Translations under genes and position numbers: made by a program
NCBI GenBank assembly: GCA_037893245.1
Contig: JBAIAA010000074.1
Location: 1,426,001 to 1,490,000 of the forward strand
Length of the DNA stretch: 64,000 nucleotides
Origin: Crossaster papposus
Lineage: Eukaryota; Echinodermata; Asteroidea; Velatida; Solasteridae
Direction: 5' to 3'
Notes under the pieces: model-generated
Databases searched by the model: none
Told to the model about the DNA's origin: nothing
The model's input: the letters and a program-made list of their open reading frames with translations, nothing else
Part shown: one piece after another, positions 27,370-64,000 of the stretch
Layout: each line of letters begins with the position of its first letter
Numbering within the stretch: the first letter of the stretch is position 1

Positions 27370-27578
27370 TGAACCAGTTCGCGCCGGATGACGTATATAA
27401 ACACAAAGTTTTCCCCAGATTCAAAACAGGTGACGCATAAAAACGTCACGAGCAAGGCCGCAAATGTCTGTCAGCAGCGAGCAAGGCCAGAAATGCGTGG
27501 GTGTGCTTCCCGGTACCATCGGCCTGAACCCGCCTCGGATCGAGTTTCGTTAAAAATAATCCCGCGCGAACTGGTTAA
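27370..27578 (+). mobile_element. TTAA MITE (CCAGTTCGCGCCGG family), short copy
   Basis: 209 bp. Left TTAA mutated to TGAA, right TTAA intact, and a deletion near the right end compared with 242-bp copies. Confidence 0.85.
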
Positions 27579-29518: not shown

Positions 29519-29760
29519 TTAACCAGTTCGCGCCGGAGGACGTATATACACGCAAAGTTTTCCCCAGATTCAAAACGGATGACGCATAAACACGTCACGA
29601 GCAAGGCCGGAAATGTCTGTCAGCCGCGAGCAAGGCCAGAATTGTGTGGGTGTGCTTCCCGGTACTATCGGCCTGAACCCGACTCGGATCGAGTTTTGTT
29701 AAAAATAATCTTGCGCCTCGGTTCGGTGATGTTAAAATAATCCCGGCGCGAACTGGTTAA
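29519..29760 (+). mobile_element. TTAA MITE (CCAGTTCGCGCCGG family), complete
   Basis: 242 bp with intact TTAA on both sides and well-preserved inverted ends, among the best copies in the window. Confidence 0.88.
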
Positions 29761-32700
29761 GACCGATAATATAATAACAATTGACCCAATAGTGTTAGTA
29801 TATTTTACTACACTATCAGTCAATCTGTTGTTACATTATCGATTAGTGATACATTATCAGTTGGTTAGTACAATATCAGTTGTAACAGGCAGTAATTTAA
29901 CTTGGATTTCATGGTATTATGTCTCACAGCCGATTTCACCAAAGAGTGTGTATCTATTGCGCCTTGCGCAGGACTTAAGCAAGTTAAAGCAACACGTTTA
30001 TTGTGCAGCTGCAACGTATTATCAATTTTCGTTTAACAACATTTTAATAATATAATCATCTTTGATGTATAACAGTTTTGTCCGACTTTCTTTTAAAAAA
30101 ATTGCAGCAAAAGTCACAAGATAAATTGTGTCGCAAGTAAAGTAGCAATTCGTTTACTTCAAACACAAAGCTGAGAGTGTCGTGTATGAGCCCTGAAGTT
30201 GAAATTGTCATTTTAATAAACTGAAAGGTTGCGCAACATAAAATGTTGGGCAACTTTTAGGCAATAAATTGTGACACAAGTGGACTTGCAGCTACTAAAT
30301 TATGTTTTGTGAAATTGGCTGGATGTTCACTATCCCAGACAATGTCTAGGAAAGCGTTCCCAAGAAACCTGTGAACTATCCAAATGAACATCTGGAGTGC
30401 TCTTATAAGTATAAGATGGATTTTCAAAATTATTCTTTTATAACTTGTCAACTTACTATGTTGGTATAGGGGCAAAGTGGGATTTCTCAACAAGATCTGA
30501 AAACTTACTTAAAATGCCATCGTGAAGTACTTCATATAAAATTTTAAAAACAAGATAATGTGAACAATTTAAATTTCGCTTTTTTTTTTATAAACAAAAA
30601 ATGAATAAGAGGCCTTTAAATAAAATTAAACTTGTTGAATTTGGAGAAACTAAAAAAGTATATAAATTTACATAACCTTAAGTATATAATATGAAATCTC
30701 AACAATAAATAAATAAATACATTAACTTTAATACCTTGTCTGGTCCAAACGTTGTACTTAAAAAATGTGAATAGCCCCCTCACCAGGAAGTAGAAAGTGA
30801 ATTGAAAATCTATAAAGTGCCTGTATCTACAACAACAACTAATTATTATGAAATTGGACAGTTTTTGTGTCTCTAAAAAAAATCCAATCAATGGTTACGA
30901 TCATGTTTCCCTAAATGCCTGTAATTCTAACTTAGAAAAACAAAACAAATGGCCTTAAATTTGAATTTAAATATTCTTCGTTTGTTAAATTTAACAACAA
31001 ATCTTGTTATAAAGACAACACACCCTTTTTTTAATTATTTAATTTTGTGTTTATAAATTAATTAATTTGTTATTAATTATATTCCCCTTTTTGCGGGGGG
31101 GGGGGGTAGTTTTCAGTCCAAATTCTGAATGATTTTAGACATTGAATTGTTGCAATTGAAATGCAGTGAATTGAAATAGAAGACAAACAATTTCAAGAGT
31201 TTTCCTGGGGAAAAAAACACCTGCCTCATTCGTATTTTGTTTTAAAAAGCCCGGATGGGAAGCTAGTTTATTTTTCTACTTGGCCTGAGATAGTGCACGT
31301 TTCATCCCAATTCTTTGCAACTGTTAAACAGTTCATTTAGGGTGTGAACAAAACACCATAAAACATTATCACAAACACGCGCAAACATGGAAATGTCAAT
31401 ATTTATTAAACAATTATTGTGACTTTGAATTTCAGTTATTTTGTGGCCTGCAGAGTGCGCACAAACCACATACAACTATACTCAAAGTAACGTTTTTTTG
31501 TTTTTTTGTATTTTGGTCAGCAAATGGAAATAGATAATTAATCCTAGTGTGTGTAAAATCCTATTATACAAAATCGAACTGTTGGGGTTAATTAATGTGG
31601 AGCAGTACTTCTCTGTTCTAAAGTTAATTTGTTGCTAAATAAATTGGTTAATATATATTTTATTATTATAATTGTTTTAATTTTTTACGTTTACTCGCAA
31701 ACTAGGATTTATCTTTCTCAATACGAATCCTGAATGACATACATGTAGAGCAGTGCGTTTGGTGCGTCATCTTGAAAAAATGCAGTCCAGAAATTACTTA
31801 CGATGTTATAATAATCTACGAAGATAAACATATTTATGCATAGATCTAACTTTGAACTTTCTTGACCGATATTTGTAAGGGAACATTCCTGTAATGATTG
31901 GTTAACGAGAGGCCAACGAATTGTCTGTAGAAATTGAAGTGACCATTAACTTTGGTATTATTTATTATTATTTTTTTTTATTTTTTTTTTATTTGAAGAA
32001 AGCAAGGAATCCTTTTTTTTTGGGGGGGGGACTGTAAGGTAGTTCTGCATATATTAAACAGCAGAAATAACACTGGGGGTACAGATGTGCTTAGATATTC
32101 TTTTGTGATTACTGTATATTTATTGAAGAAAAGAGTTACTGAGAAAGTGTTAATAAGCGAATACACAAGGTTTCTGGACATGAAAATAATGCCTTTAGAG
32201 AAGGTTATTTTGATGAAACTTCAGGCAATGGGATATAATTGATGAATCTATATTAGTCTGTACAATATGAACATATGATATTATATACTGCCAAACTGTA
32301 TTTAACATGTTAACGGTGTACGACAAATGCCGACAACGCTATTACTTCAGTTGCCTTGCCACGTAATTTTGTAACGTCAGAAAAACGTTTCAAAAACAAA
32401 TTGTACATTATGAATTTGTGTGCCGATGTTTGACGTCATTTTTCCGCTGTGACCTCGAGGTTAACACAAAGGTTTAACAAAGCGAGAATATCCTATTGGT
32501 CTGATTTTAATAGTCGATGGTTGTATTTTCACGCTTTGGAGTCTCATTGCAATTGCTAACCTGTTTTTTTTTCGTTTTTTTCTAACTTCTTCACAGGCAC
32601 TGATTTTCTGTTTCCTAACATTTGTCCATAATTATTTTGCTCAAGCAACCATGTTTTGTTTGTGCTAAAAATAGTTTTAATGCTTAATCATGCCACGTTG

Positions 32701-34818
32701 AAATTCACTTTGTGCCTAGGTCTTTACAAAAAGTAAAATAACGATATTTCGTGCATGTTGGGAATGTACACGGTGTCGGTGTTGGTTGGGTGCACGCATT
32801 GATGTACTTTTGTTGTATGTCAGTCTACTCATGGAGCAATAAACTCCATTGTCTACTCTAAAAACCAAGTTTAACCTTTCTCTACAATTGAAACTTCTGT
32901 GTGGGCGGATTTAGCCATTTGTATTGAAATGGCGTCCTTGATAAATGTCGACCCAAACAACAGTACATGACAATATTAATCTGGGTGTGTAGTATCATGG
33001 TATTGTACACACCAAGTTGAACCAATGAGTAATTTTAACTTTCCCAGCCAAGTAATAGTGCAGAATCATCTTGTTGATTTTAGGGCGTGTTTTTTTATGT
33101 CATTGTATTTTATTTTGTTTTGCAACCTCTGTTGTGGATATTGCTATTTCACTGCAAGGCAAGCAAGTTGAGGCTACATGCCCTAAGTATTACAATTACG
33201 GCTACTACATGTATTGGGGGGGGGGGGGGGGTAGTGATGTGAGATTACAATTACGGCTACTATGTGTATTGGGGAGGGGGTAGTGAGGTGAGATATCTCA
33301 GCTCCCGCACTGTACAAACTGTTTTGGTTTGGGAAAAAAGTCATGTTTTTACCTTTGCTGAAAACTAAAAAATGTAAGACTTTTTTTTCTGGTAAAATGT
33401 ATCCTACCTGTGCTCCCAATGTTTTGATTCTGTTTCTGCTGCCCCAGAAATTCTAACTGTGCATGTGCGGCAGATAAATGCACACAAAGCTATGGGGAAC
33501 GTGGCAACCGCATTTTGTGCATTCGTTTTGTGTGCGATGGAAATATTTTGTTCGAACAAATGTTTGGTCACACAAAACGCCTGAAAAAACTTTGTTGTCC
33601 AAACTTGTGTTAATGTTGGTTTAGAACACGACGATCTCTTCAGATTTGCTGGTACCCGCTATGCTTTTGCAGGCATACAATGAAATGTTTATCTCGAAAG
33701 AAAGATCATCCAATCCTCCAATGTGCACATGCGCAGTTAGAATACTGAACTGGCTTTTTCTTTAGGTTTTTAAAGAGAGGATTGAGGGAGATTTTTTTTC
33801 TCCAAATATCTAAAATTGAGATATGATATCTGGACACCAAAAAGGCCCCGGTCTGTCTCGAATTGACTAAATGCTTCCATTTGTAATGTTCCTGTACGGT
33901 TTGGCAAGAATGATGACCACCACGTCTGCTTGGTGTTGTGGGTTTTTTGGTCTAAAACTTGATATTATCATCAAAATGAACTAAAATGTCCACGAAGATA
34001 TGCGAAGGAATTCAGAAATAATGGACAAAACATGTATTTTTCTACCGAGTATTTGAATAATGATCATGTGCGCTTTCAAGTTCTGTAGGTTTTCAGAGCA
34101 ACCTTTGTAAAAAAATTAAAAAAAAGTAGAAGAAAATTTAAAGAAACAATCGGTGAATTTCAGTGAATTGTCAACCGATAGACATTGATATATTTTTTTT
34201 GTTAGTATGGTACATTGTATGAGCAGAGATCACTGAGCGACAGTGATACTGTGCGAGTATTTATTTGACCATTTGTGAGAATTGAACAGAATGGGATGAT
34301 TGCACAAAGTATTAAAAAACTTTGAACAAGTATTGGAAAAGTTGAAATTGAAATACGACAAATTTTTGTAATGTGTTATTTATGCCTTATGGTTGCACTG
34401 GATTAGACGCAACTCATTTTTTTGCTGTCCCATTTTACGACGGTGTCGTCATAAAGCTAGTATGTCTTTGCCAATTGCTTATTTTCTGTGTATATATTTA
34501 TTGTGTATGATATTACTTCTTGTTTTTTCTCTTGTTGCAAAGATGAGAGAAAATGGCTTATTTATAAGCCACTTCAATAAACGATGGAAAAATGTTGAAC
34601 ATTAAAACAAACAAAAAGTTGAAAATGTTATGAACATTAACAGCCTCACTGAATAAAACATTCAAAAGTGTGCAAGTTAAAAGACTGAATTGTGTTAGTT
34701 TGTTTCATGTCTATTTCCAGCACGATTATTGTTAATTCTTTCTGGTAATTAAACCAAGGCACTGTAGCTCGTAAGCCTGAAGAAACCTGCAGAGAGGAGA
34801 TATTGAGAAGAAGGTACA

Positions 34819-34950
34819 CTTTTAGAGGTGGGAGGAAAACCAAGGAATCAGGCAGGGACTGAAAACCAAATCCACGTAATGGCCCAGACATGGTTCGAAC
34901 TCGGGTCACAGTGGTTAAAGGCGAGGAAATAACCGCTATGCAAACCCGAC
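34819..34950 (-). mobile_element. tRNA-derived SINE, minus strand, partial
   Basis: The reverse complement of 34819-34950 matches the SINE at 35132, including the tRNA-like head and the 'ttttcctcccacctctaaaa' body. It has no tail. Confidence 0.75.
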
Positions 34951-35131
34951 TACCCACAACCCGACTTCAGGATACAGTACAGTGCAATTGAAAAAGTTAA
35001 CAATGCGAATGGGAAATTTTGTGAAAGGAATGTCATTACCTATTAACATTCCCTTTTTGCATTTCAAATTTCGCATGCACACATTCGCATGTTTGTATCC
35101 TTGTGGAGACATCTCTTTGTTCTCGGGGGGA

Positions 35132-35417
35132 GTCGGGTTGGTGTAGCGGTTCTTTCCTCGCCTTCCACCACTATGACCCGGGTTCGAATCCGGCCTGGGC
35201 CAATATGTGGATTGGGTTTTCAGTCCCTGCCTGACTCAGTGGGTTTTTCCCCAGGATATTCTTCTGGGGTTTTCCTCCCACCTCTAAAACTGTAACTTCT
35301 TCACATTAATTGTTGAATGAAATAAAAAATTGTTGAATGAAATTTGTTCCCGCCGTGAATATGGCCATTGATGCTGGTACGGCGTTAAACCCTAAAAACT
35401 CACTCACTCACTCACTC
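35132..35417 (+). mobile_element. tRNA-derived SINE with ACTC tail
   Basis: The A-box-like TGGTGTAGCGG (35139-35149) and B-box GGTTCGAATCC (35181-35191) have tRNA spacing. A non-tRNA body and a terminal (CACT)n run follow. The lack of a folded acceptor stem and the long tail exclude a functional tRNA gene. Confidence 0.8.
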
Positions 35418-36477: not shown

Positions 36478-37227
36478 AAGGCACCACTCCTATAGGGCAC
36501 CACTCCTATAGGGCACCACTCCTATAGGGCACCACTCCTATCATGAAGGCACCACTCCTATCATGAAGGCACCACTCCTATCATGAAGGCACCACTCCTA
36601 TCATGAAGGCACCACTCCTATCATGAAGGCACCACTCCTATCATGAAGGCACCACTCCTATCATGAAGGCACCACTCCTATCATGAAGGCACCACTCCTA
36701 TCATGAAGGCACCACTCCTATCATGAAGGCACCACTCCTATCATGAAGGCACCACTCCTATCATGAAGGCACCACTCCTATCATGAAGGCACCACTCCTA
36801 TCATGAAGGCACCACTCCTATCATGAAGGCACCACTCCTATCATGAAGGCACCACTCCTATCATGAAGGCACCACTCCTATAGGGCACCACTCCTATAGG
36901 GCACCACTCCTATAGGGCACCACTCCTATAGGGCACCACTCCTATAGGGCACCACTCCTATAGGGCACCACTCCTATAGGGCACCACTCCTATAGGGCAC
37001 CACTCCTATAGGGCACCACTCCTATAGGGCACCACTCCTATAGGGCACCACTCCTATAGGGCACCACTCCTATAGGGCACCACTCCTATAGGGCACCACT
37101 CCTATAGGGCACCACTCCTATAGGGCACCACTCCTATAGGGCACCACTCCTATAGGGCACCACTCCTATAGGGCACCACTCCTATAGGGCACCACTCCTA
37201 TAGGGCACCACTCCTATAGGGCACCAC
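36478..37227 (+). repeat. Minisatellite array 1: 20-bp GGCACCACTCCTATCATGAA and 16-bp GGCACCACTCCTATAG units
   Basis: A few 16-bp units open the array, about 17 nearly identical 20-bp units follow (about 36526-36880), then a long block of 16-bp units. Within-array identity is close to perfect, which points to recent expansion. Confidence 0.95.
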
Positions 37228-37619
37228 TCTTGTGTGCGTAAGTCTCTGTGCTGACTATACCTCATTTGAACATTTGAATTGGGTGTGTATTTATGGGTAG
37301 GTTGGAAACCTAACGTTACCCCACAATTTTAATATCAGAGTTTCCTTTTCAGCTTGTTCATAAAGGTCTCCGCTATAATACTGCCACGTCGGTGAGTCAA
37401 TAGAAGTGTTTACAGTGAAGTTTGCAAACTGCAAATTTACTAGCGTCACCAATTCGGTTTCTTTTCATGTAGCCTGGTTTCATTTTGAAAACGACAGGAA
37501 AAACATAGACTATCGTGTCAGATGTAAACAACCGTGTTTTTTTTCTTTTCTCGGGAACGGTAAGACATTAGGTTGGATTTCCTTTCAACCATATGTTTGA
37601 AATAGGATCAATAAAAAGA

Positions 37620-38142
37620 AGGCACCACTCCTATCATGAAGGCACCACTCCTATCATGAAGGCACCACTCCTATCATGAAGGCACCACTCCTATCATGAA
37701 GGCACCACTCTTATCATGAAGGCACCACTCCTATCATGAAGGCACCACTCCTATCATGAAGGCACCACTCCTATCATGAAGGCACCACTCCTATCATGAA
37801 GGCACCACTCCTATCATGAAGGCACCACTCCTATCATGAAGGCACCACTCCTATAGGGCACCACTCCTATAGGGCACCACTCCTATAGGGCACCACTCCT
37901 ATAGGGCACCACTCCTATAGGGCACCACTCCTATAGGGCACCACTCCTATAGGGCACCACTCCTATAGGGCACCACTCCTATAGGGCACCACTCCTATAG
38001 GGGCACCACTCCTATAGGGGCACCACTCCTATAGGGGAACCACTCCTATAGGGCACCACTCCTATAGGGCACCACTCCTATAGGGCACCACTCCTATAGG
38101 GCACCACTCCTATAGGGCACCACTCCTATAGGGCACCATTAT
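37620..38142 (+). repeat. Minisatellite array 2: same two units, same order
   Basis: About a dozen 20-bp units are followed by 16-bp units, with three 17-bp variants near 37997-38040. It repeats the architecture of array 1 about 912 bp downstream. Confidence 0.95.
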
Positions 38143-39096
38143 TGTGTGCGTAAGTCTCTGTGCTGACTATACCTCATTTGAACATTTGAATTGGGTGTGT
38201 ATTTATGGGTAGGTTGGAAACCTAACGTTACCCCACAATTTTAATATCAGAGTTTCCTTTTCAGCTTGTTCATAAAGGTCTCCGCTATAATACTGCCACG
38301 TCGGTGAGTCAATAGAAGTGTTTACAGTGAAGTTTGCAAACTGCAAATTTACTAGCGTCACCAATTCGGTTTCTTTTCATGTAGCCTGGTTTCATTTTGA
38401 AAACGACAGGAAAAACATAGACTATCGTGTCAGATGTAAACAACCGTGTTTTTTTTCTTTTCTCGGGAACGGTAAGACATTAGGTTGGATTTCCTTTCAA
38501 CCATATGTTTGAAATAGGATCAATAAAAATACAAAACATGATCTTTTGGAGACTTCAGGACATAGTGCCCCTTTAACAATCCAGCCCCAAACATGTTTCA
38601 AGTCCAACAAATACAGACTGCAAAAATGTTGTCAAGAGAAAATAGTTCAGTTTGGTTTAAAGGTCATCAGGGTTTAAAGGTCATCGGGGATGAAGAGTGA
38701 CCTAGAGATAGATTATTCAGAATCTGACCACCTGATTATCGGATTAATCGTTGACCAGAACCCGAGTTGACCACGCTGAACGTAATTTTATTATTTTTGG
38801 ATTATGGAGAGTGTTGTTAGTACAGTATTAACAACCGGGCCCTAATTCTAAACATGGTCGGCCTTTATCTTCAATCTATTCTTTGACTTCGGGAATGTTT
38901 TTTAATATGCAAATATTCCCATTATTATTTGCACTTTTCAGAAACGACCCTGACGTTTGAGTGACTGCGACTCGAATTCCAATTGAAAGGAGCTCTTGCG
39001 TTCCATCGCCGATTTGTTAACCCCAAATCGACCCATGCTTTTTTTATTTAATTTTTTTCCGATTTGCATTGAACAGAACTAAATATCCTACCGCTT

Positions 39097-46500: not shown

Positions 46501-49500
46501 TTGGAAGACAGAAATATGAACTATGAAGTTTAGCACAATAATAGCAGTAACTATTATTATTAAACAATTTGTTATAATTTTGAACAGAAACATAGGCCTA
46601 AGTCGTTTTTATACATGAAAGAAAAATCAATTTTGTATGCATGACATGAAGGCAGAAACCTAACTTTATCATATAAATAAGCCACACAATTAAAACAAAA
46701 CAATTAATTTTGTTTCTGTTGGCTACTGTGCAATCACCATCTAGTGCATATCCAGCACATGTAGGCCTACATGTACATGTACATGTACATGCACCCCTGT
46801 GTGCATAACACACGCTCTGCGTATGTACAAGCCGAAAGACATGGCCGAAAAAGTTGAAATCGCGCGCACGAAAATCGTCGCAAAATACATGAAAAAAATG
46901 TCGCCACAGGCTAAATTGTATATCAAACGAAAGATCATTGCTTCCTTTATCGATGTGTAGTAATCATTTTTGGCAATATTTGTTAGTCCAGTCAGGGCGC
47001 AGAAACTAAACACACGACAACAAATTTCCTTAAAATCATACCATAACTTCGAGTGAACAAAATTCTGCCAAAAACATACTGAATCTCGTCATATTTTATA
47101 TCATTCGATTCAGAAAATCGTTCGCTTTCCACTTACCACGCCATCTTGGAGAATCACTGCTTCGTTTGCAACGTGTAGCTCGTGAAAACAAAGCGGTCGA
47201 ACTCTCGCAATTACTCGCGTAAATCTCGTGGCCGATTTGCGACGCCGGCCCTGCAAATAAAGTTCGGGATATGACCTCATTAACGCGGGCGCTGCGGACT
47301 GACTGCCTCGTGTTGTTTATTCTGCGATTACGTAAACGTCACCAACGCGTGATTGCCCACGACTGATCTGATAGAATCACCACGATTACTCCACGATTAA
47401 GACCACGATTTCAATCGTGGCGCGAATCGTGATAGTGGGAACCTTACTTCTAAAGTTCTACTACATTTTTGGTGAAACTAAATAAGATGCAGTGACCAAA
47501 AGGTGTCTGGTGCGAAATAGTGTCCAGTGGTCATGCGCAGTAGAGGCAGGCGGTCTCACTTCTCCGGCGTGCTAGCTTCTCCCAGGGAGGAATCCTTCTT
47601 ATTCCTCCATGCTTCTCCGAAAAGGAAATAACGCTTCAACACGCATGCGCAAAATTGGGCAGTGGTTTACATTTTTGCCTATTATTCTGTGCCGAGTTCT
47701 TTGGTGATGTGCTGGTGAACGTAAGATTGTAGGATGTGTCTACGTAGTTCAGGGTACCAGTAGAATCCAGGGCGCGTGCGACAAAATTGTACTACTGCTA
47801 TGCTGTACTAGACTAGTACCAGTCGGTCTTTTGCTTCGAAACGGCGGCGTCGGCAGCAGACATGACGGCCAGACTCGCTTCTGACAAGAAAAAGAGCGAT
47901 CGTATTATCTTCTATCTATCTGATGACTGTTGCATTTATTTATAATAATATTAATAACGAATATTTGTAATGCGGTGGCCGGTACGGTATCCATAAACAA
48001 GATTTATACACGGTCCGCCCATATCCTTCTTATTCCTCCATGGTCCGCCTCATGAGTGCTCAGACTCAGGGATATAATTAAAGCTTCCCCTCAGTTCAGT
48101 CAATCATCCCCTGATGAAAACAACTTGCTACAATCTTCAAATTAAGTTATTTTTCAATTTGTCCCTATATAGTTATCTGAGTGATCATCAGAAAATTGGT
48201 CCTGAAATCAGCCACACTTTGTCATAAATGCGATGAAAAATATGGTGATAGCGCCCTCTGTTGGTAGCCCGGCATCAGGAGAAGTGAGCACAGCGGATAA
48301 ATGAGTATGTGATTGTAACGTGCTGACTTATCCGCTCAATCCGCCCGGAGAAGCTAGCACGCCGGAGAAGTGAGACCGCCACACCGGACACTATTTGGCA
48401 CGTACTACGTGCCAAATAGTGTCCGATGCAAAATAGTGTCCGGGCGCGCATTCATGCATTGTGGACAGTATTTGGCATGCAGGGGGCTGACAGTATTGTG
48501 GCGGAACCGGCGGAGGACCTAGATGGGGACTGGTCTTAATATCCCAGGACTCCAACCAACTCCTATTATCCAACAAATATATTTATTAGCCTCGCGCAAG
48601 GATGAGCGGCTATCCAGACGTGCGCAAGGGGGGACAATTAACGAACGGCGGCCTTAGCCTATAGTAGGGGCGGTTCGTTTGGTGGAAATATACCACCGTT
48701 CTGTGATTGAGAGGGTAACTTGAATGTAATATAACAGAACACTAATTATTTGGTCCTAATAAACCTCACAATACAAATAAACCTCACAGTGACAAGTATT
48801 CCGAAGACGAACAATAATTGGTCTTATTCTCTTGATCCAAGCTTCAATTATAATACTTAAATGCAATGATCCTTAAATACAATGGTCCTCACGTGGTCAA
48901 CTGCACCACGGGCTAGGCTAACTTATACTAATAAACCTTAGTGGTCAACTGCACCACTTAACTAAACTTATAACTTGTGATAATCCTCACTGTGCTTATA
49001 CAATATAATCCTCACTGGGCTTATACAATATAATCCTCACGTGTGATAACCCTCACACCTGTAACAGTTAATACAATTATAATCCTTATCCTTATGTGAC
49101 AATATAAATGACGACAAAATAAGTGGGGTAATTAACAACGGGTAGGCTGATTAACTATGCACAAATAAATCCAACGTGGTCACGTGAATTGTACTTTGGG
49201 GTACTTAACAATAATAACCCTCACACAACCTTGTGTAACCCTCAAGTGAGCTCAGCCTAGGAAATAGTAACCTTCCACAAGTTTAGGTAACCCTCGCACA
49301 AGTTTGGGTAACCCTCACGAGAACTCAGAACAGGGAACAGTCGGCCTAATCCTTTATGAGTTTGGTAACCCTCGCACAAGTTTGGGTAACCCTCACAAGA
49401 GCTCAGAACAGGGAACAGTAATCCTACACGAGTTTGGTAACCCTCACACAAGTTTGGGTAACCCTCACAAGAGCTCAGAGCAGGGAACAGTAATCCTACA

Positions 49501-52500
49501 CGAGTTTGGTAACCCTCGCACAAGTTTGGGTAACCCTCAAGCTAGCTCAATGATTACAGGATCGCCTCGCAGTAACAACGACTGGCAACCCACACAAATC
49601 AATGTCCCACTAGCCAACAAAACCTCGGATTACAAACCTTACTCCCACTTGCTGTAATACCAATCTCGACACAATAATTACTAGTTATACCCCAGTACAA
49701 TTCCACCTACCGGTCTCAACGGTGTGCAGCTTCTGCCGTCAGTTCAGCGCTACTGAGATTATTAGATTGCGAACAACGAACTCAACGATTGTAGGTCAAC
49801 TCGCCCCCTGACCGACTCGCCCCTTACCAACTCGCCCCTTACCAACTCGCCCCCTGACCGACTCGCCCCCTGACCGACTCGCCCCTTACTAACTCGCCCC
49901 CTGACCGACTCGCCCCCTGGCCGACTCGCCTCCTGACCGACTCGCCCCCTGACCGACTCGCCCCCTCGTTTGATTTATGGACCTTGTACGATCGATGTAC
50001 ATCATGTATATTCGTTACCATAAAATTCGTCATTTTGAGGAATAAAAACGAACTCTCAACTTAGAAATTTTGCGGACTGATCAGAGGAATCAAAAAATAG
50101 GCTGCAAGAATGCGACTTCCAAGAAATCAATGGAAACGGACAACTTTCTAATAATATTCTTCCTCAAGTTGTGTACACTTATTTACATTAGGCATACAAA
50201 GAAATTATTCAAATATTATAATTAAGGAGAAATCTACAATGTGATGGACTAGACTGGACTCCCGCGAACACTAAATCATGACGACGATTCCGAACCCCCG
50301 CGCATGTTTGGCAAACTTTTGGAAACTTCCAAATCGTTCGCGTGCCCCGCAAAAACCCACCCTAAAGCATGCATAAAAACGGTTTATGGATGTGTCTTTA
50401 AAAAGTTCGTGCTTTTTATGTTCTGAATATTCTCAGGTCTAACACAACATACCAAACGTCTTATAAAATGTGAAAATCACATTTAACACCATTGGACATA
50501 CAAAATACCCAAAACAGTCCCCCTTCTCCAAAAGTAGCAACCTCATTGGTCAAATTAGCGACTTTATTGTATTCACTGTCAGCTCTTTGATCTGGGTTTT
50601 TCACCATCTTTCACCACGTTTGGCGGACTGATCAGAGGGAGCCGACAGTTTTGTAGATGAGCGTCGTAACACCCAGTTCAATCCCTCATTAAGAGCGTTG
50701 GTTTTCGTAACAAAGAATGGTGGAGTGATTGACAGATTCCCTATAGCTTCCTTGAAAAGCCCTATTGGGTTGGAAAGCAGTAAACAAAATCGCATCAAAT
50801 TATGCGATCAACTTGTCCCCCCGCGCTCCGAAAAAACCCTCATACAAACAAGAACCAAACATGATTATTCCCCCCCCCCCCAATTTTCTTTAAATATATA
50901 AATGTATAAATAAATTGTTATGAGTTTAACTTTTTTGGCTTCGAGGATTTAGGCCTACTGCTTTGTCTTTAATTTCCACCACCGAAACGAACATCAAAAG
51001 GTATTTTCTAAAACTTAGATAAAAATAATCGAGATTAGGGCCTATGCAAGAGAATAATCAAGGAAAAAGTTTACCCACATCGTCTTTTCAGTTGTTAAGT
51101 TCTACGAGGGCAAATGATACAAATTATAGAATTAAAAATACATGTAAATCAAACCAGGGGGCGAGTCGGTCAGGGGGCGAGTCGGTCAGGAGGCGAGTCG
51201 GCCAGGGGGCGAGTTAGTAAGGGGCGAGTCGGTCAGGGGGCGAGTCGGTCAGGGGGCGAGTCGGTCAGGGGGCAAGTCGGAAAGGGGCGAGTAGGTAAGG
51301 GGCGAGTCGGTCAGGGGGCGAGTTGACCTGACACCAACTCAACGTATGACTCTCCGCACAGACGCTGTCTTCCGGACAACTGACAATCAGGCCAACACAA
51401 CCACATTTCAGCAGGCCCCAGGTCGGGTGCAATACGCGCTGCTGATTGGTTGCAGTGACCGCGCGCATTAATTATTAACAAACTAGACTTCATTACAAGT
51501 CGGCATATACCTGTACCCTGTTTCGCCACAGTATTTAGCAGGATCTGTATAATAAACGGACAGTATTTGGCAGGGTCTGTATAAACAAACGGACAGTAGG
51601 CCTACTTGGCAGGATTCATGGAACATTTTTTCCAGGATCTGTAGGCCCCACCATGTATTGTAACGATTCCGGGTCGCCTAATGTCAGTCTGGGCTAACCC
51701 CTAAGTAAAATCAAGTCCCAGTTATCTGCCGGAATCTTTAATGAAGTGTAGCTGAGTGAGACAGGATTCTTGGAGGGAATGTGGGGAGCAATAAAAGATA
51801 ATGTCCACAAGAGGGAGTAATTCTTTCAACCAATCAAAATGGTAATTCAGTTTATTGAAACTTCTTGAGTACATCTGAGCTGAACATCTTTAAAACAGCG
51901 CCCTCTATTATTGTAAACAAAGATATTCCAATAAAGCTGTGGCATGAGATTATTTAGTGGTAGCGTGGATAGCTTTAAGGATTCGATGGCCGCTATTTCT
52001 GTCGTCTGTTATACAACAGGAATATAGCTCAAAAACATTACAGCGCATAAACTATACGGTACTTTCTTTTAGTCTTTATTACTATCGTCGGATTTTACAC
52101 ACACAGAAATGTCCATGTGGTTTTCTCCGACAAAGCCCAATAGCGCAGATCTAGGCACGGTTGGGGGCTTTCTAAAATATGCCTTGAGGTCTTGTCTTGA
52201 GATCTTGCGCGGCCTGCTCCGACGGAACAGAACAGAACCCCAATAATCGGAAATCAGCGGAATTTATAGGCACGATGCGGACGCGCTCTACACGTGCGCG
52301 GAACGCGCATCTCATACAACAGCGATGATTGGCCAGATAATACAACAGTCTACGGTAGCAAGTTGTAACAACACAACAGTACATGTATGTCTGTACTGGT
52401 GCGGCTCACAGTCGTTTTGCACGCACGTACGGTATTGTTGTACATATGTATGTGTGTGTACGTACGTACAGCATGCAATACGTTCATTCAGTAAATTACG

Positions 52501-58500: not shown

Positions 58501-61500
58501 GCTGTGATCTTCAAGAAAAGTCTAATTTTGTTATCAATTTGCGATGATTGGAAAAACCAAGCCTCCAATTTATTCTATTTAGTTAATGCCCATTTTTTTG
58601 GCGATACGCGACACATTCATGAATGTGTCACAGCCAACTAGTCTGGTTTCATATTAAGTTGATAATTCTCTGACTTATGTATACAAATTGCTCTGTTTAG
58701 TCTTAAGGAAGTTAGGGAATCAGACTACAAGAACAGCATTTTTTCTTGGTTTTTCCAGCAGCGTTACAATATTTATCATAAAATATGAATCTCCTAACCT
58801 ATTCGTTTTTGAAAATTACAGCAAAAGCAAATGATTTTTACCACCTTACCCCCTCACTGCTTTTTCTAGAAAGTATCCTGAATCCGCTACAATCCACCAA
58901 GTTTGGTTTGCAACCCCCTCACTGCTTTTTCTAGAAAGTATCCTGAATCCGCTACAATCCACCAAGTTTGGTTTGCAAAAACTGCTGGTGTCCTGAGTCC
59001 ATCAATAATCCACCAGCAAAAGTTGATGGACTCTGGCGGATTCAGGATACCATGGTGGCATACACAAAATTGCAGTGTGTTTCTCCATAGAGTCCATCAC
59101 CTAAATTTCTGAATCCTGAATCCATCAAACTCCTGCAGTAATGCTTGGCTTAAAATCCTCAATCCATCACACTCCTCCAGTTTGTTTAATATGGAGGTAT
59201 CCTGATTCGCTAAAATCCTCCAAAACAGGAAATGAATTTTGATTGACTCATGGTGGTTAGGGTTGAGGAAGAAAGAACAATTCAGATACATTGTTCTCTC
59301 AAATCATTTTGTCTTGTATCTGTTGCATTATTCAACAGTTATAGATAAAGACGCCAGCGATGTTGTGTCCTGTCGTAGGGGAAGTAATCCAGACTCCTTA
59401 GCTGACTCGTGCTTTTCACTGTGCGAGACCATCGACGTGGCTTTTAATCCTGCCGGAGTTGAGGTACGATTCTGGGGTTTTTTTGGTCTGAATAAACTGA
59501 AGTAAAAAACAATTATTAGAAGAGTTACTAGCATTCCTGCTCGTTTGTTTATTTTGGCAGGTAATTCATATCGAATCCGAATAGTGAAATGGGTATAATC
59601 TGTAGTAATGACTTCAGAACTTTTCAGTATTAAAACAAAATGTTATAAAATGTATGGTTAAAAATTGTAGTATGTTTTTTGTCATACGACTTATTTTTAA
59701 ATATAAAATGCACTGTAATCCTTGTTTGTTTTGAAGGGGTCCTGTGTAATCCAAGTGTCCCCGATTACGGGAGTTTCTAGGAATTTTTACGGTGTGGCCG
59801 TAGTTGTGGAAGACGCCTACCCATCTAGCCCTACGGCGTTGAGTACTGTACCGCTTCAGTTTGTGCTGAGACTGTATGGACAAGATGGGGTGTGTCTGGA
59901 GGAACCAACATTTGTCACTAGCACACCGGATTTTGGTAGTGTAGTGAATGCTCCGGATGGTTTTGACATCGTGGCCAGAAGTTCTGCTGATGTTCTTACG
60001 TAAGTAAACTGCATACAGTTCACCAATAAAACCTACGACCTCTGTTCCGGTGTTCTACCAACTGAGCTTACCAGCATAATGTTGGCAGTTCACCATTATT
60101 TCAAAGTTTTTGTTCAAAGGGGCGCTATAGTCAGGAGTCATCAGCCTGTCTTTGTCATGTAGCGAGACTATAACCATAAGCATAGGTGGACGAACCCCTA
60201 TACCCCTATACCCCCTATACCCCCTATACCCCCTATACCCCCTATACCCCCTATACCCCCTATACCCCCTATACCCCCTATACCCCCTATACCCCCTATA
60301 CCCCCTATACCCCCTATACCCCCTATACCCCCTATACCCCCTATACCCCCTATACCCCCTATACCCCCTATACCCCCTATACCCCCTATACCCCCTATAC
60401 CCCCTATACCCCCTATACCCCCTATACCCCCCTATACCCCCCTATACCCCCCTATACCCCCCTATACCCCCCTATACCCCCCTATACCCCCCTATACCCC
60501 CCTATACCCCCCTATACCCCCCTATACCCCCCTATACCCCCCTATACACCCCTATACACCCCTATACACCCCTATTAACCCCTATTAACCCCTATTAACC
60601 CCTATTAACCCCTATTAACCCCTATTAACCCCTATTAACCCCTATTAACCCCTATTAACCCCTATTAACCCTATACCCCTCCCCCCTGAAAAAAGGGTTG
60701 TAATAAGACCTACCCTGAGTGCGTTGTATTACTGACAGCATCACTGAGATTGTGACCCTATCACCGCTGATGACCAACAAGACTGCACTGACCACCGTGC
60801 CGAACACTGAAGGAAGACATTCCAGTATAACAGTGACTCTAGGCCAACCGGAAGGCGAGGTTGTGGAAGACCAGATCATGTGCTTCTATGCAAGCCAGTC
60901 AAATGGGTAGGTGTCTCTTTATGTTACTGGGTCATTCACAGATAGTCAAACATTTCTTTCACTTCCCTAACGTGCATTTGTATACAGAAACCAATTTCAT
61001 TAAGCTGCTAAGCACAAACATTTGCTTAGCTCAAAAAAGTCTTGCTCAGTAAAAACAGGTTATGAGCCAAAAATAAAAAAATCCTTGCTTTTTTTTCTCG
61101 GCATCCATGATTATAGAACTTCGAACAGCTCAGTTAAACGATATTTACTATAAAATATAACCCTCCCCAAATCCACCATTCCTGATAAATTAAGCACTTA
61201 CCAATGTTGTATCCTTCCTTTAAATCCACCCATTGCTGATAAATGAAGCACTTACCAATGGTATGTACGAACGTTAAGAAACAAATTAAAAAAATATGCA
61301 GTTCAACAACTTTTGACTTCTGAGATTTATAGATCAACAAAGGGCGAATTTAAGGCAAAGTTCATTTTAAATTTTTCTATTTTTTTTCCTATTTTTCTCC
61401 AGGGTTTCAAGTACACCTCGCTGTATCACCGTGACCTATCGTAAGAACCAGTAATCGCATCTTGTAAAACCAAATTTTCAAAAAGATCGGGAGCAAACGA

Positions 61501-62907
61501 TTTTCCAATGATTTGTTTGTTTGTTGAGTATGTAGCTAGCGGCTGTTTGTAATCACTCTTGGAGCGATAAGCTTTATGCGAATGCAAGGGGTATTTGACA
61601 TAGGGAAATTTCCATTCGAGTTGAGATGTGTTCACTTTTGGTGAAATCGCAGCCTGAAAAATTGTCTCGGCGTCACCAATTCAAATTCACGTTCACACTA
61701 AGTATGTATCGGTCTTAACGTAGTATACACCATTTGCAAAACAAAAGTATTGATTTATTATGAAATACCTTACTTGACTGTAAGTGAATAACGAACTCAA
61801 GCATCCTGTGACATCACAGCACCTGGTGTGCTGTGGATATCAAGGAAAGTGGAATTTTCTTTACAATAAATCCGTAAATCAGGGCAATTAAGCCAACTAG
61901 TCTGGTTTCCTAACCCAATTATTCCCTGATGTATATACATTGCTCTGTTTCGTCTAAAGGAAGTCAAGGAACCAGACTGCAAAAACAGCTTTGTTTTGTT
62001 GGTTTTCCGAGCATCTATGAACACAAAACCTCATACCAGATGAGCGTCACAATATTTACTATAAAATATGTTCCCCATAAACCCATCAATTTATTTTTAA
62101 ATAGCAAAAGCAAATGTTGTATTCTACCTTTAAGAAGAACATTCAGAACATTCCTTACTGGCAGCTGTGAAACTAAATTGGGAAGGATGTCACATTATTA
62201 CCCCGGTCATTGGGCTCACGAAACATTCCAAATACCATCTTAGCTCCCTGGGGAGTATACAGCTCAATGCTGCCATTTCGGCACAAAGCAGCTAAATCAA
62301 CCACAATAACCATCTTCGCCCTCACAGTTACTTATTTTACTCCTGGGTGGAGAGAAGCAATGAGTGACAAAGCGGCTGGGCACACGTACCATAGTCCCAG
62401 ACTGGAGTCCAACCCACAACTTTTGGCTTTACTGTTGTTTTCTGCTTTGGAGCATTGAATTTGTAATCTGTATGTAAAGCTACAGGTTGTGGGTTCGAGT
62501 CCGGCCTGGGACTACGGTTCATGTGCCCTAGAGCAAGGCACTTTGTCACTCATTGCTTCTCTCCACCCAGGAGTAAATGGGTACCTGTCAGGTCAGAGAT
62601 GGTTATTGTGGTTGATTTAGTTGATTTAGAGCTGTATACTCCCCAGGGAGCTGAGATAGTATTTGGAATGTTTCATGGGCCCAATGACGGGGAAATCTCA
62701 GCGCTTAAAAACACTTGTATTAAGCGCTATATAAATGTTATTTATTATTATTATTATTAATTGTATTCTTGAATTATTTGACAGCTCTACCCCCACCAGA
62801 TCCCTGTTTAACTGGACCTTGCGACAATGGAGGTACCTGCACGCCTTTTTCAGGAACGTATATGTGTACTTGCCCTCTAGGATACTCGGGCAATAATTGT
62901 GAAACAG
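40407..62907 (+). CDS. Secreted cysteine-rich protein with EGF domain (5' part of gene, 8 exons)
   Basis: The join is 40407-40556, 56737-57008, 57636-57820, 59339-59463, 59737-59999, 60739-60906, 61403-61440, 62785-62907. It gives 441 residues with every junction in frame and GT/AG splicing; the gene continues past the window. Residues 1-26 are a signal peptide ([13 protein letters not shown] core). Residues 27-400 resemble the N-terminal module of a large family of uncharacterised invertebrate extracellular proteins: [18 protein letters not shown], a GCCW motif, [17 protein letters not shown] and VPLQFVL, then MCFYAS and RCITV. An EGF domain follows (from 62797). Role is unknown; adhesion, matrix or recognition functions are only guesses. 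The family match is from memory of the sequence pattern, without a named Pfam domain. Confidence 0.85.
40744..40945. repeat. Interspersed repeat (CTAGACTATTGTTACCTAA-type), second copy
   Basis: Matches 26915-27130 in phrase order ('acctatacactccctagact', 'tccacaagtacaatgaccac', 'ttgctttatatgc'). Confidence 0.6.
41035..41122 (+). repeat. CCCGA pentanucleotide repeat
   Basis: Tandem CCCGA units, pure over about 41078-41117 and degenerate before. Flanking CGATCCGAC and GGTCGGATCGGGTCGG phrases are inverted versions, so the block may be the core of a decayed palindromic element. Confidence 0.85.
41921..42166. mobile_element. MITE with GGGCCTTTTCGAA ends
   Basis: Left 'gggccttttcgaaaccgttg' and right 'cagggattcgaaaaggccc' are imperfect inverted repeats extending into 'tttggctt' / 'aagccaaa' phrases. 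About 246 bp; related to 39097-39300. Confidence 0.75.
43006..43216. mobile_element. 211-bp element with 17-bp inverted ends and perfect 9-bp target duplication
   Basis: The left end TAGTCTTGGTGCAAGAC and right end GTCTTTCACCAAGACTA pair with one mismatch. GAGTGAGCG flanks it exactly on both sides (42997-43005 and 43217-43225). Inner arms 'agggcgctatca' and 'tgatagcgccct' form a second inverted repeat. A 9-bp duplication is typical of Mutator-like elements. Confidence 0.85.
44579..47305. other. 2.7-kb segment bounded by 17-bp perfect inverted repeats
   Basis: CAGTCAGTCCGCAGCGC at 44579-44595 is exactly inverted at 47289-47305. Inside, a 23-bp sequence occurs twice in direct orientation (44975-44997 and 46983-47005). 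Most of the interior is AT-rich without a coding frame. It may be a decayed DNA transposon; no target duplication was found. Confidence 0.45.
47549..48380. mobile_element. 832-bp element with perfect 34-bp terminal inverted repeats
   Basis: 47549-47582 (starting 'ggcggtctcacttctccggc') is the exact reverse complement of 48347-48380. The phrase 'tccttcttattcctccatg' occurs twice inside. No coding frame and no clear target duplication. Confidence 0.8.
48385..48425. repeat. Perfect 41-bp palindrome
   Basis: Two 20-bp arms (CGGACACTATTTGGCACGTA and its complement) around a single C at 48405. It lies four bases outside the 47549-48380 element, so it may be two element ends fused tip to tip. Confidence 0.9.
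48720..49250. repeat. Decayed tandem repeats with CCTCAC motif
   Basis: Phrases such as 'ataatcctcactgggcttat', 'aataaacctcaca' and 'gtggtcaactgcaccac' recur at short distance, indicating old tandem duplications that lead into the cleaner array at 49270. Confidence 0.6.
49270..49545 (+). repeat. Minisatellite, about 65-70-bp unit, 3-4 copies
   Basis: The unit contains 'ggtaaccctcgcacaagttt', 'gggtaaccctcac' and 'gagctcagaacagggaacag', then 'taatcctacacgagttt'. Copies differ by a few bases. Confidence 0.85.
49788..51335. mobile_element. Foldback-type element: 16-bp tandem repeats as long inverted termini
   Basis: Both ends are about 170-bp arrays of a 16-bp unit (ACTCGCCCCCTGACCG on the left, 49798-49966; its complement on the right, 51157-51325). 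Variant units occur in matching order on the two sides. The outermost bases are ATTGTAGGTCAACTCGCC and GGCGAGTTGACCTGACACC. The 9-bp sequence AACTCAACG flanks both sides exactly (49779-49787, 51336-51344). Tandem-repeat termini plus a 9-bp duplication are the hallmarks of Foldback elements. The 1.2-kb middle shows no transposase. Confidence 0.85.
52692..53449. repeat. GGACC/CCCCGGA minisatellite with inverted ends
   Basis: Degenerate 10-12-bp units such as 'accccggaccac' and 'aacaaggaccc' fill 750 bp. The first bases (GTCACACCGGAC) and last bases (GTCCGGTGTGAC) are exact inverses, and both flanks carry AAAGCC/GGCTTT. The whole is therefore probably another tandem-repeat-filled foldback-like element. 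No target duplication was found. Confidence 0.75.
54600..55440 (+). repeat. Diverged tandem repeat of about 160-170 bp with AGGTCA half-sites
   Basis: At least four monomers share 'attactgaggtcaaaggtca', 'aggggtcattggaggtcatt' and 'gatggattttgatg' phrases. Another fragment lies at 57975-58330. AGGTCAAAGGTCA (55274-55286) is a perfect DR1 arrangement. Confidence 0.75.
55274..55286 (+). promoter_or_regulatory. Perfect DR1 nuclear-receptor-type site inside a repeat
   Basis: AGGTCA-A-AGGTCA matches the DR1 element bound by RXR/HNF4-type receptors. It lies in a repeat monomer within the large intron; function is untested. Confidence 0.35.
55605..55632 (+). repeat. Poly-G run
   Basis: About 20 consecutive G bases with flanking G-rich sequence, able to form G-quadruplexes. 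Confidence 0.9.
56263..56507 (+). repeat. Polypyrimidine block, about 245 bp of C-rich CCCCCTCC units
   Basis: Almost pure C and T on the + strand, mostly CCCCCCTC/CCCCTCC, ending 230 bp before exon 2 of the secreted-protein gene. Such tracts can form triplex or i-motif structures and are prone to assembly error. Confidence 0.95.
56737..57008 (+). CDS. Secreted-protein exon 2: first cysteine block
   Basis: 272-nt exon from acceptor 'gcatatatacag' to donor GTTGG|gtaggt, 90 codons plus two bases. It begins [12 protein letters not shown], matching the family pattern in which the RGGT motif is followed by V-E-V-S-x-R-I-S. Four Cys follow (QYCTED, LSCIRE, GSCPSN, FVCTDY), then [19 protein letters not shown]. 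No stop in frame. Confidence 0.88.
57009..57635. other. Secreted-protein intron 2 with a long hairpin
   Basis: 627-bp phase-2 intron. Its only notable feature is the hairpin at 57177-57257. Confidence 0.7.
57177..57257. repeat. Near-perfect 81-nt hairpin
   Basis: Arms 57177-57209 and 57225-57257 pair over about 32 bp with one mismatch. The apex CGGTC-GAA-GACCG extends the stem after a GA/GA bulge. Size and pairing resemble a pre-miRNA, but near-perfect pairing also fits a tiny MITE. Confidence 0.85.
57636..57820 (+). CDS. Secreted-protein exon 3: CCW motif
   Basis: 185-nt exon from acceptor 'caaaatgcag' to donor TCCAA|gtaaga; the first base completes Gly. It encodes [20 protein letters not shown], then [12 protein letters not shown] and [17 protein letters not shown]. 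The paired cysteine with Trp, the R-x-D-x-G-x-x-N-x-x-P segment and the VRxQxGC segment are strong family landmarks. Confidence 0.9.
57862..57970 (+). repeat. Fragment of the CCAGTTCGCGCCGG TTAA MITE
   Basis: Starts 'taaccagttcatgtcggatg' and keeps the left half of the family consensus; the right half is missing. Confidence 0.7.
57975..58330 (+). repeat. AGGTCA-type repeat fragment
   Basis: Matches monomers of 54600-55440 ('ggatgtagtgacccttgcat', 'gggtcaaaggtcatgta', 'aggggtcatttgaggtcatt'). GGGTCAAAGGTCA at 58059-58071 is a DR1-like site. Confidence 0.7.
58377..58845. repeat. Diverged TATACxCCATTT-type element
   Basis: Shares 'ctcaagcatcct', 'atcacagcac' and 'tgtatacaaattgctctgtt' with the better-preserved copy at 61714-62133. 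Confidence 0.6.
58849..58978 (+). repeat. Exact 65-bp tandem duplication
   Basis: 58849-58913 and 58914-58978 are identical, starting 'ccccctcactgctttttcta'. The phrase 'tcctgaatccgctacaatcc' recurs in weaker form down to about 59220, so the duplication sits in an older decayed repeat. Confidence 0.92.
59339..59463 (+). CDS. Secreted-protein exon 4: cysteine block
   Basis: 125-nt exon from acceptor 'tattcaacag' to donor TTGAG|gtacga. With the split Ile codon it encodes [20 protein letters not shown], then [20 protein letters not shown]. In relatives this segment follows VRxQxGC and reads DxDxDxVxCRW, so it is in the right place and order. Confidence 0.88.
59737..59999 (+). CDS. Secreted-protein exon 5: VPLQF block
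   Basis: 263-nt exon from acceptor 'ttgttttgaag' to donor CTTAC|gtaagt. It encodes [20 protein letters not shown], then [29 protein letters not shown] and a closing [12 protein letters not shown]. The LSxVPLQFxL motif followed by a Cys pair is a family signature and is well preserved. Confidence 0.9.
60000..60738. other. Secreted-protein intron 5, mostly a CCCCCTATA array
   Basis: 739-bp phase-2 intron. About two thirds of it is the minisatellite 60196-60690; the acceptor lies only about 50 bp after the array. Confidence 0.85.
60196..60690 (+). repeat. CCCCCTATA minisatellite with a unit-length shift
   Basis: About 25 nine-base CCCCCTATA units (60200-60425) pass into ten-base CCCCCCTATA units, then CCCCTATACA and finally CCCCTATTAA units. 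Each class forms its own block, a sign of successive expansions. The complementary strand is GGGGG-rich. Confidence 0.95.
60739..60906 (+). CDS. Secreted-protein exon 6
   Basis: 168-nt exon from acceptor 'attactgacag' to donor AATGG|gtaggt. It encodes [20 protein letters not shown], then [20 protein letters not shown] and SQSNG. The P-x-x-x-x-x-x-x-x-M/FCFYA pattern before a Cys-Ile-Thr-Val strand is a family landmark and supports the call, although the exon is otherwise variable. Confidence 0.85.
60989..61080. repeat. Truncated GCTAAGCA-type repeat
   Basis: Has 'aaccaatttcattaagctgc', 'taagcacaaacatttgctta' and 'aaaaacaggttatgagcc'; the remainder is missing, replaced by a fragment of another MITE (61088-61224). 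Confidence 0.65.
61088..61224. repeat. Fragment of the AGGTAGGATACACCATT MITE family
   Basis: Contains 'ctcggcatccatgattatag', 'gttaaacgatatttactata' and the end 'gttgtatccttcctttaa'. Confidence 0.7.
61403..61440 (+). CDS. Secreted-protein exon 7: 38-nt micro-exon
   Basis: From acceptor 'atttttctccag' to donor CTATC|gtaaga. It encodes only [13 protein letters not shown] together with split codons. It joins ASQSNG before and PLPPPDPC after, recreating the RCITV strand that ends the family module. Its short length makes it easy for gene finders to miss. Confidence 0.8.
61714..62133. mobile_element. 420-bp TTAA-flanked element (CGTAGTATACACCATTT ends)
   Basis: TTAA at 61714-61717 and 62130-62133. 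The ends 'gtagtatacaccatttgc' and 'gcaaatgttgtattctacc' are inverted. Internal 'aagcatcctgtgacatcaca' is shared with 58377-58845 and, in part, with 10671. Confidence 0.75.
62203..62440 (-). mobile_element. tRNA-derived SINE, minus strand
   Basis: Reverse complement of most of the SINE at 62475-62760, at roughly 80 percent identity by eye. It includes the 'cctgggtggagagaagcaat' and 'agctccctggggagtataca' blocks. Confidence 0.8.
62475..62760 (+). mobile_element. tRNA-derived SINE with TTA tail
   Basis: B-box-like GGGTTCGAGTCC at 62491-62502. The body includes 'cattgcttctctccacccag', then the widely seen 'aagcgctatataaatgttat' segment and a (TTA)n tail. Confidence 0.82.
62785..62907 (+). CDS. 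Secreted-protein exon 8: EGF-like domain
   Basis: 123-nt exon from acceptor 'ttatttgacag' to donor AACAG|gtaaga, phase 1 at both ends as in most EGF exons. The six cysteines are spaced C-x4-C-x5-C-x8-C-x-C-x8-C in [14 protein letters not shown] and [14 protein letters not shown]. The domain lacks the Asp/Asn-Asp/Glu start of calcium-binding EGF. The protein continues beyond the window, probably with more EGF or other modules. Confidence 0.93.
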
Positions 62908-62918
62908 GTAAGATTATC

Positions 62919-63312
62919 TTAAAGGGGCATTATGTCTCGGAATTGTCCACGTGCTACAAAATGCGTTTTGAATGAAATCATGTTAATCACGAAAGTGACC
63001 CCCAAAACTCGAGCTGTTTGGTTGTAGACGTGATTTCAGTCGTAAAGTGTTCACCTTTTGCGGACAGGTTGAAAACCACATTGGTGCTGTATGTAATTTA
63101 TGTGACACACACAGGTGTATCGAACATAGAATGAAAACGACAGGAAAATTGTGTGGCTACACCCTTGTGTCCTACAAGTTTTTTTCGTCTTTTCTCGAGA
63201 ACAGTAAGACATTAGGTTGGTTTACTTTTAACAAGATGTTTGAAATAGGATAAGTAAACAATCCAAAACATAAAATTGTTTGGGATTTTAGGACTAAATA
63301 CTGCCCCTTTAC
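62919..63312. mobile_element. 394-bp TTAA-type element, relative of the minisatellite host
   Basis: Starts 'ttaaaggggcattatgtctc' 12 bp after the EGF exon donor and ends 'tactgcccctttacc', the final TTAA having mutated. Shares 'gacaggaaaa', 'agtaagacattaggttgg' and 'tgtttgaaataggat' with 37230-37619 and 38143-38576. Confidence 0.78.
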
Positions 63313-63671
63313 CTTAGAGAGTTGAAAGCTTCTGATTGGTCGAAACTCGATCACATGGGCGGGCGTTGTGGGTAGCAGAGAACCGGCTTTCAAGAAAAAG
63401 CGAATATTAAAATGTTACCTTTAGATTTGGTGCTTTTGCTGGTTCAAACGATAAAAATGCACAACTGCATGACAAATAATATACTGTAACTTAAACTATA
63501 CACTGTCCCACTAAAATTGCACTCACTCATATGCCTTATTCACAGGTCGAACATCTTAAATTGAAAGCGCAGTAAAATCTTCATATTTGGAATTTGCAAA
63601 TAGAAATGATGAAATAAAGTTAATTGCAAATGAATATCAGTCTGCTCTAATGAATAATTTTAAATTTGCTA

Positions 63672-63913
63672 TTAACGAGTTCGCGCCGGATGACGTATAT
63701 AAACGCAAAAATTTCCCCAAATTCAAAACGGATGACGCATAAACACGCCAAGTTCAAGTTCGGAAATGTATGTCAGCAGCGAGCAAGGCCGGAAATGCGT
63801 GGGTGTGCTTCCCGGCACTATCAGCCTGAACCCGCTTCGGATCAAGTTTCGTTAAAAATAATCCCGCCCGTGGGCTCGGCGATGTTAAAATAATCCCGGC
63901 ACGAACTGGTTAA
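63672..63913 (+). mobile_element. TTAA MITE (CCAGTTCGCGCCGG family), complete
   Basis: 242 bp with TTAA at both ends. The left arm is 'cgagttcgcgccggatgacg' and the right arm ends 'ggcacgaactgg'. It lies in the intron after the EGF exon. Confidence 0.88.
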
Positions 63914-64000
63914 TGATACGCTAATATTTTAAGCCACAAAAAATTGAAAGCGAGGCTTTCATCAATGCTTAAATAGTCTGGCTCCATCCAATTCAAAGGT

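Follow-up and report, generated by a model that had tools for sequence, protein, structure and literature searches.

Around positions 49788-51335 of the stretch of Crossaster papposus DNA analysed here (64,000 nucleotides, hereafter the window), two arrays of a tandem unit of about 16 bp face each other. The question raised by this arrangement is whether the arrays are the ends of a transposable element and, if so, what kind of transposase would have moved it. The reading that we favour, with a probability of roughly 0.8, is that 49788-51335 is a foldback-type, non-autonomous DNA transposon, inserted by cut-and-paste with a transposase that came from elsewhere and was most likely Mutator-like.

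Arms, tips and flanking direct repeat

The facing arrays noticed in the first-pass annotation were confirmed as paired arms of 185 bp each, a left arm at 49793-49977 (plus strand) and an inverted right arm at 51145-51329 (minus strand), which lie 1,167 bp apart. In the alignment of the arms 173 of 186 columns are identical, and the other 13 include two gaps. Read inward, both arms begin with AGGTCA, continue with 11 units and end with GTTTGATTTA, with inner and outer boundaries common to both. Ten of the units in each arm are full units of 15 or 16 bp (consensus ACTCGCCCCCTGACCG), whereas the innermost, the 11th, runs into GTTTGATTTA. Tandem Repeats Finder reported the arrays at period 16, with scores of 252 and 247. 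Eighteen units were tabulated, nine per arm, the tenth full unit and the merged 11th unit of each arm being left out; 12 of these were 16 bp and six were 15 bp long. Their invariant columns include ACT and GCC, and variation is found mostly in the second half of the unit (C-TGACCG versus TTACCA and variants). Foldback-type elements are characterized by inverted ends that are built of tandem repeats. In part of the Phantom/Muta group a terminal motif precedes short tandem repeats in subterminal position, as AGGTCA precedes the units of 15-16 bp here.

The element is 1,548 bp long and lies between two exact plus-strand copies of AACTCAACG, at 49779-49787 and 51336-51344, which bears out the earlier observation of a 9-bp direct repeat on both sides. 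A target-site duplication is a further mark of foldback-type elements, represented here by the exact repeat at one copy, and its length falls within the 8-11 bp given for MULE duplications (PMC6446971). When pairs of points 1,537 bp apart were drawn in the window, with replacement and with the window's own repeats included, the 15-bp flanks of the two points had an exact 9-mer in common in 269 of 200,000 draws; with random point pairs the number was 159 of 200,000. Since such a 9-mer is shared in only about 0.1 per cent of the draws, the duplication of AACTCAACG at this single locus is unlikely to have arisen by chance. Its exact length may differ slightly from 9 bp, given an alternative direct match of 11 of 12 bases (49776-49787 and 51333-51344) that takes in three bases of the right tip.

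An exact inversion of the outermost 13 bases had been claimed for the arms. Exact outer inversion does exist, but it extends over 36 bp and does not reach the duplication, starting 5 bp inside it on the left and 6 bp inside it on the right. The tips that remain outside the inverted match, ATTGT at 49788-49792 and GACACC at 51330-51335 (both given for the plus strand), do not form an exact inverted pair. They could also be decayed inverted repeats, because TGT is common to both with a one-base gap.

It was also proposed earlier that variant units follow the same order in the two arms and that each arm was copied or corrected as a whole. Between the arms, the inner block that carries the GGCCG and CTCC variants is in register, but the TTACTA unit is the sixth in the left arm and the seventh in the right, as would follow from the loss of a unit to one side of it and a gain to the other. 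Five of the ten full units are identical in place. When the ten full units of one arm were permuted, as many identical units were obtained in 2,153 of 100,000 shuffles, a summed unit distance as low as that observed in 5,048 of 100,000, and an alignment score as high as that observed in 160 of 3,000. With statistics as weak as these the common order is suggestive at most, and joint copying or correction of the two arms is no more than a possibility.

Interior of the element and search for relatives

The interior (49978-51144, 1,167 bp) has no recognizable coding sequence in the frames tested, in agreement with its earlier description as non-coding. The region 49700-51400 has 50 stop-to-stop ORFs, of which ten were scanned against Pfam. 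None of these ten had a family above the curated cut-off, and one family, SdiA-regulated, came up below it (E 0.22). The longest frame lying wholly in the interior has 89 amino acids. Its single weak match to a solved structure, a yeast mitochondrial ribosomal protein (E 0.027), was judged to be fortuitous, as no ribosomal family was assigned to this ORF by Pfam; a captured gene piece is conceivable. No Rfam family reached its gathering score in the whole window, a permissive RNA-family search of 49700-51420 yielded one match of 19.7 bits, far under the gathering score of 48.5, and ARAGORN detected no tRNA in the window.

A 20-bp direct repeat in the interior is present in two plus-strand copies (50068-50087 and 50619-50638), which are 551 bp apart and alike at 19 of 20 bases. 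Three more matches to its core, GACTGATCAGAGG, were found in the window at two mismatches, all on the minus strand (9653, 9759 and 48089). The repeat may mean little, as short repeats are common in the window: an exact 17-mer repeat was present in 851 of 2,000 random window pieces of 1,167 bp, and in the element interior there was none.

Two of the units were searched for elsewhere in the window, and no second match was found at up to two mismatches. An exact 23-base unit pattern had no match in viral contigs and none in prokaryote genome contigs, where an animal repeat is not expected. Ten of the 163 ORFs listed for the window were scanned against Pfam, and no transposase was found among these or among the ten ORFs scanned in the element region. 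The ten window ORFs had two Pfam families above cut-off, both of which indicate an animal: 24413-24940 has an AFF4 C-terminal domain and 62724-62972 an EGF domain. A third window ORF had a match to the unrelated family B-block_TFIIIC below the cut-off (E 0.098).

Relation to described elements and probable origin of the element

Drosophila FB elements make a 9-bp duplication and contain a minisatellite. The present element shares these two features with Rehavkus as well (PMC6446971), although Rehavkus-1_TC is 9.5 kb long and its inverted ends contain units of 164 bp (PMC10218199). Tetris of Drosophila virilis is similar in its foldback layout, its 8-10-bp duplications and its middle part without apparent coding capacity, but it differs in having units of about 220 bp and arms of up to 1,735 bp (PMC4079207).

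Muta1 of Aedes aegypti, which has been termed a type-2 foldback element, has 145-bp inverted repeats with a 10-bp terminal motif and a 12-bp repeat that is present nine times, with spacers of 3-4 bp; it makes 8-9-bp duplications, and its transposition was demonstrated in yeast (PMC5225508). It has more than 300 putative derivatives, most of which have the inverted repeats alone in common, and in the same mosquito 10 of 12 long-ended MULE families carry short subterminal tandem repeats (PMC5225508). Muta elements have been grouped with Phantom (PMC6446971). The Crossaster element resembles Muta1 and Muta5 in its short terminal motif, in subterminal units that recur about every 15-16 bp and in the length of its duplication, and its unit structure recalls the repeat-plus-spacer layout of Muta1 (PMC5225508). 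Muta1 and Muta5, both MULEs, have nine units, inverted repeats that measure 145 and 151 bp, duplications of 8-9 bp and many derivatives with other interiors (PMC5225508), whereas 11 units, arms of 185 bp and non-inverted tips are found here.

Tm1 of Meloidogyne, a Mutator/foldback element with a Phantom-like transposase, has non-inverted 7-bp tips inside 9-bp duplications, tandem units of 13-15 bp, a distinct inner motif and inverted repeats that are, within an element, 93.15% identical on average, and a member of 1,080 bp lacks obvious coding sequence (PMC3169594). Non-inverted tips, a 9-bp duplication, short tandem units, an inner motif and arms that are about 93% identical are all seen in the present element. 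In contrast to Tm1, its tips are 5 and 6 bp long, its unit and tip sequences are different, and no extra unit follows the inner motif (PMC3169594). In a visual comparison of the unit ACTCGCCCCCTGACCG with the motifs given for Tm1 in PMC3169594, the unit, tip and inner-motif sequences of Tm1 were not encountered here. Nor is there, unlike in Tm1, a histone hairpin reported by Rfam, since no family reached its gathering score. Taken together, the descriptions of Muta1, Muta5 and Tm1 include a terminal motif, repeat units of about 15 bp in tandem and duplications of 8-10 bp (PMC5225508, PMC3169594). The claim that the family looks undescribed must therefore be given up as far as the architecture is concerned. 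It could hold only for the sequence family; the literature was searched for the kind of element, which is well described.

By analogy with these elements, membership of the present one among the MULEs is probable. A transposase, most likely Mutator-like (of the Phantom/Muta or the Rehavkus/FB type), would be supplied in trans from elsewhere in the host and would bind the tandem units of 15-16 bp in both arms, thereby pairing the ends. The paired element would then be cut out and inserted at a 9-bp staggered cut, and filling of the gaps would leave AACTCAACG on both sides. We infer that the units would act as repeated transposase-binding sites, and that the interior would be filler or captured DNA. 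In Galileo, several transposase-binding sites lie within the long repetitive ends and are bound by the DNA-binding domain of the transposase, whereas for Foldback and Phantom elements such a role of the units was untested as of 2013, according to PMC3688188. Transcripts of the long arms, which are of opposite sense, could fold back and seed small RNAs, as has been discussed for long MULE ends (PMC6446971).

The exact 9-bp repeat at paired inverted arms, the identity of the arms, their common inner boundary, the lack of a Pfam family above cut-off in the ten element-region ORFs scanned and an anatomy like that published for Muta1 and Tm1 argue for this origin. Against it count the single copy in the window, the lack of a transposase among the ORFs scanned and ends whose inversion stops short of the outermost bases. 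The anatomy does not by itself fix the class, because foldback ends have evolved in more than one superfamily (PMC3169594). Thus, of the earlier proposal of a Foldback-type element linked to Mutator-like transposases, the first part agrees with the anatomy and the 9-bp duplication, and the second is to be read as the most likely link.

Sea-urchin TU elements have inverted arms of units of about 15 bp, heterogeneous middles and 8-bp duplications (compared with 9 bp here), and they speak for the idea of a foldback-type element that owes its mobility to a transposase from another superfamily, its ends having arisen by convergence. Galileo, in which foldback-like ends are combined with a P-type transposase (PMC3688188), would be the precedent, and the authors of the Tm1 study regard foldback-like elements as not necessarily related by descent (PMC3169594). 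The 9-bp duplication together with the tip-plus-short-unit layout is nevertheless best matched by described MULEs, and we consider a transposase of another superfamily unlikely. Slightly less probable still is that a non-MULE transposase serves these ends of 15-16-bp units, with the arms kept alike by gene conversion; the end design of Muta1 and Tm1 would then have originated independently in another animal lineage. The remaining explanation invokes no transposition but a minisatellite array inverted or duplicated through recombination, with a 9-bp repeat beside it by chance. Tandem arrays are indeed abundant in the window (54 rows, some overlapping), and an array plus its flank is duplicated at 36480-38529, but the presence of 11 units with the same inner and outer boundaries in both arms, and a chance near 0.1% of finding so close a 9-mer, make this origin very improbable.

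As a single copy, a foldback-type transposon of the Mutator-like kind would be ordinary. The element extends the end design consisting of a tip and short tandem units, in a clear case, to a further genome. Should its partner be a MULE, this design spans mosquitoes, nematodes and Crossaster papposus, and the units as transposase-binding sites become a testable idea.

Other repeats in the window

Just upstream of the element, at 49267-49539, there are tandem repeats of 72 bp and 21 bp that contain the word GTAACCCTC. The region 36480-38529 consists of two direct arrays of a 16-bp unit, GGCACCACTCCTATAG, each followed by the same flank. It looks like a recent duplication of array plus flank, or a duplication in the assembly, because the flank stretches 37230-37617 and 38142-38529 are 100% identical over 388 bp.

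An inverted pair at 34809-34955 and 35127-35300 is 83% identical over 120 bp and 94% over 33 bp. The words GGTTCGAATCC and TGGTGTAGCGG in this pair recall a tRNA-derived SINE; ARAGORN gave no tRNA at this place. A dispersed repeat of about 200-250 bp occurs in both orientations, at 10425-10668, 20066-20314, 27372-27568, 29519-29762 and 63668-63916, and its inverted copies, among 25 of the 308 inverted pairs, are 86-94% alike. At 60195-60679 a tandem unit with a period of 10 is repeated about 51 times, and the word TAGGCCTA is over-represented, with 8 occurrences seen and 0.85 expected.
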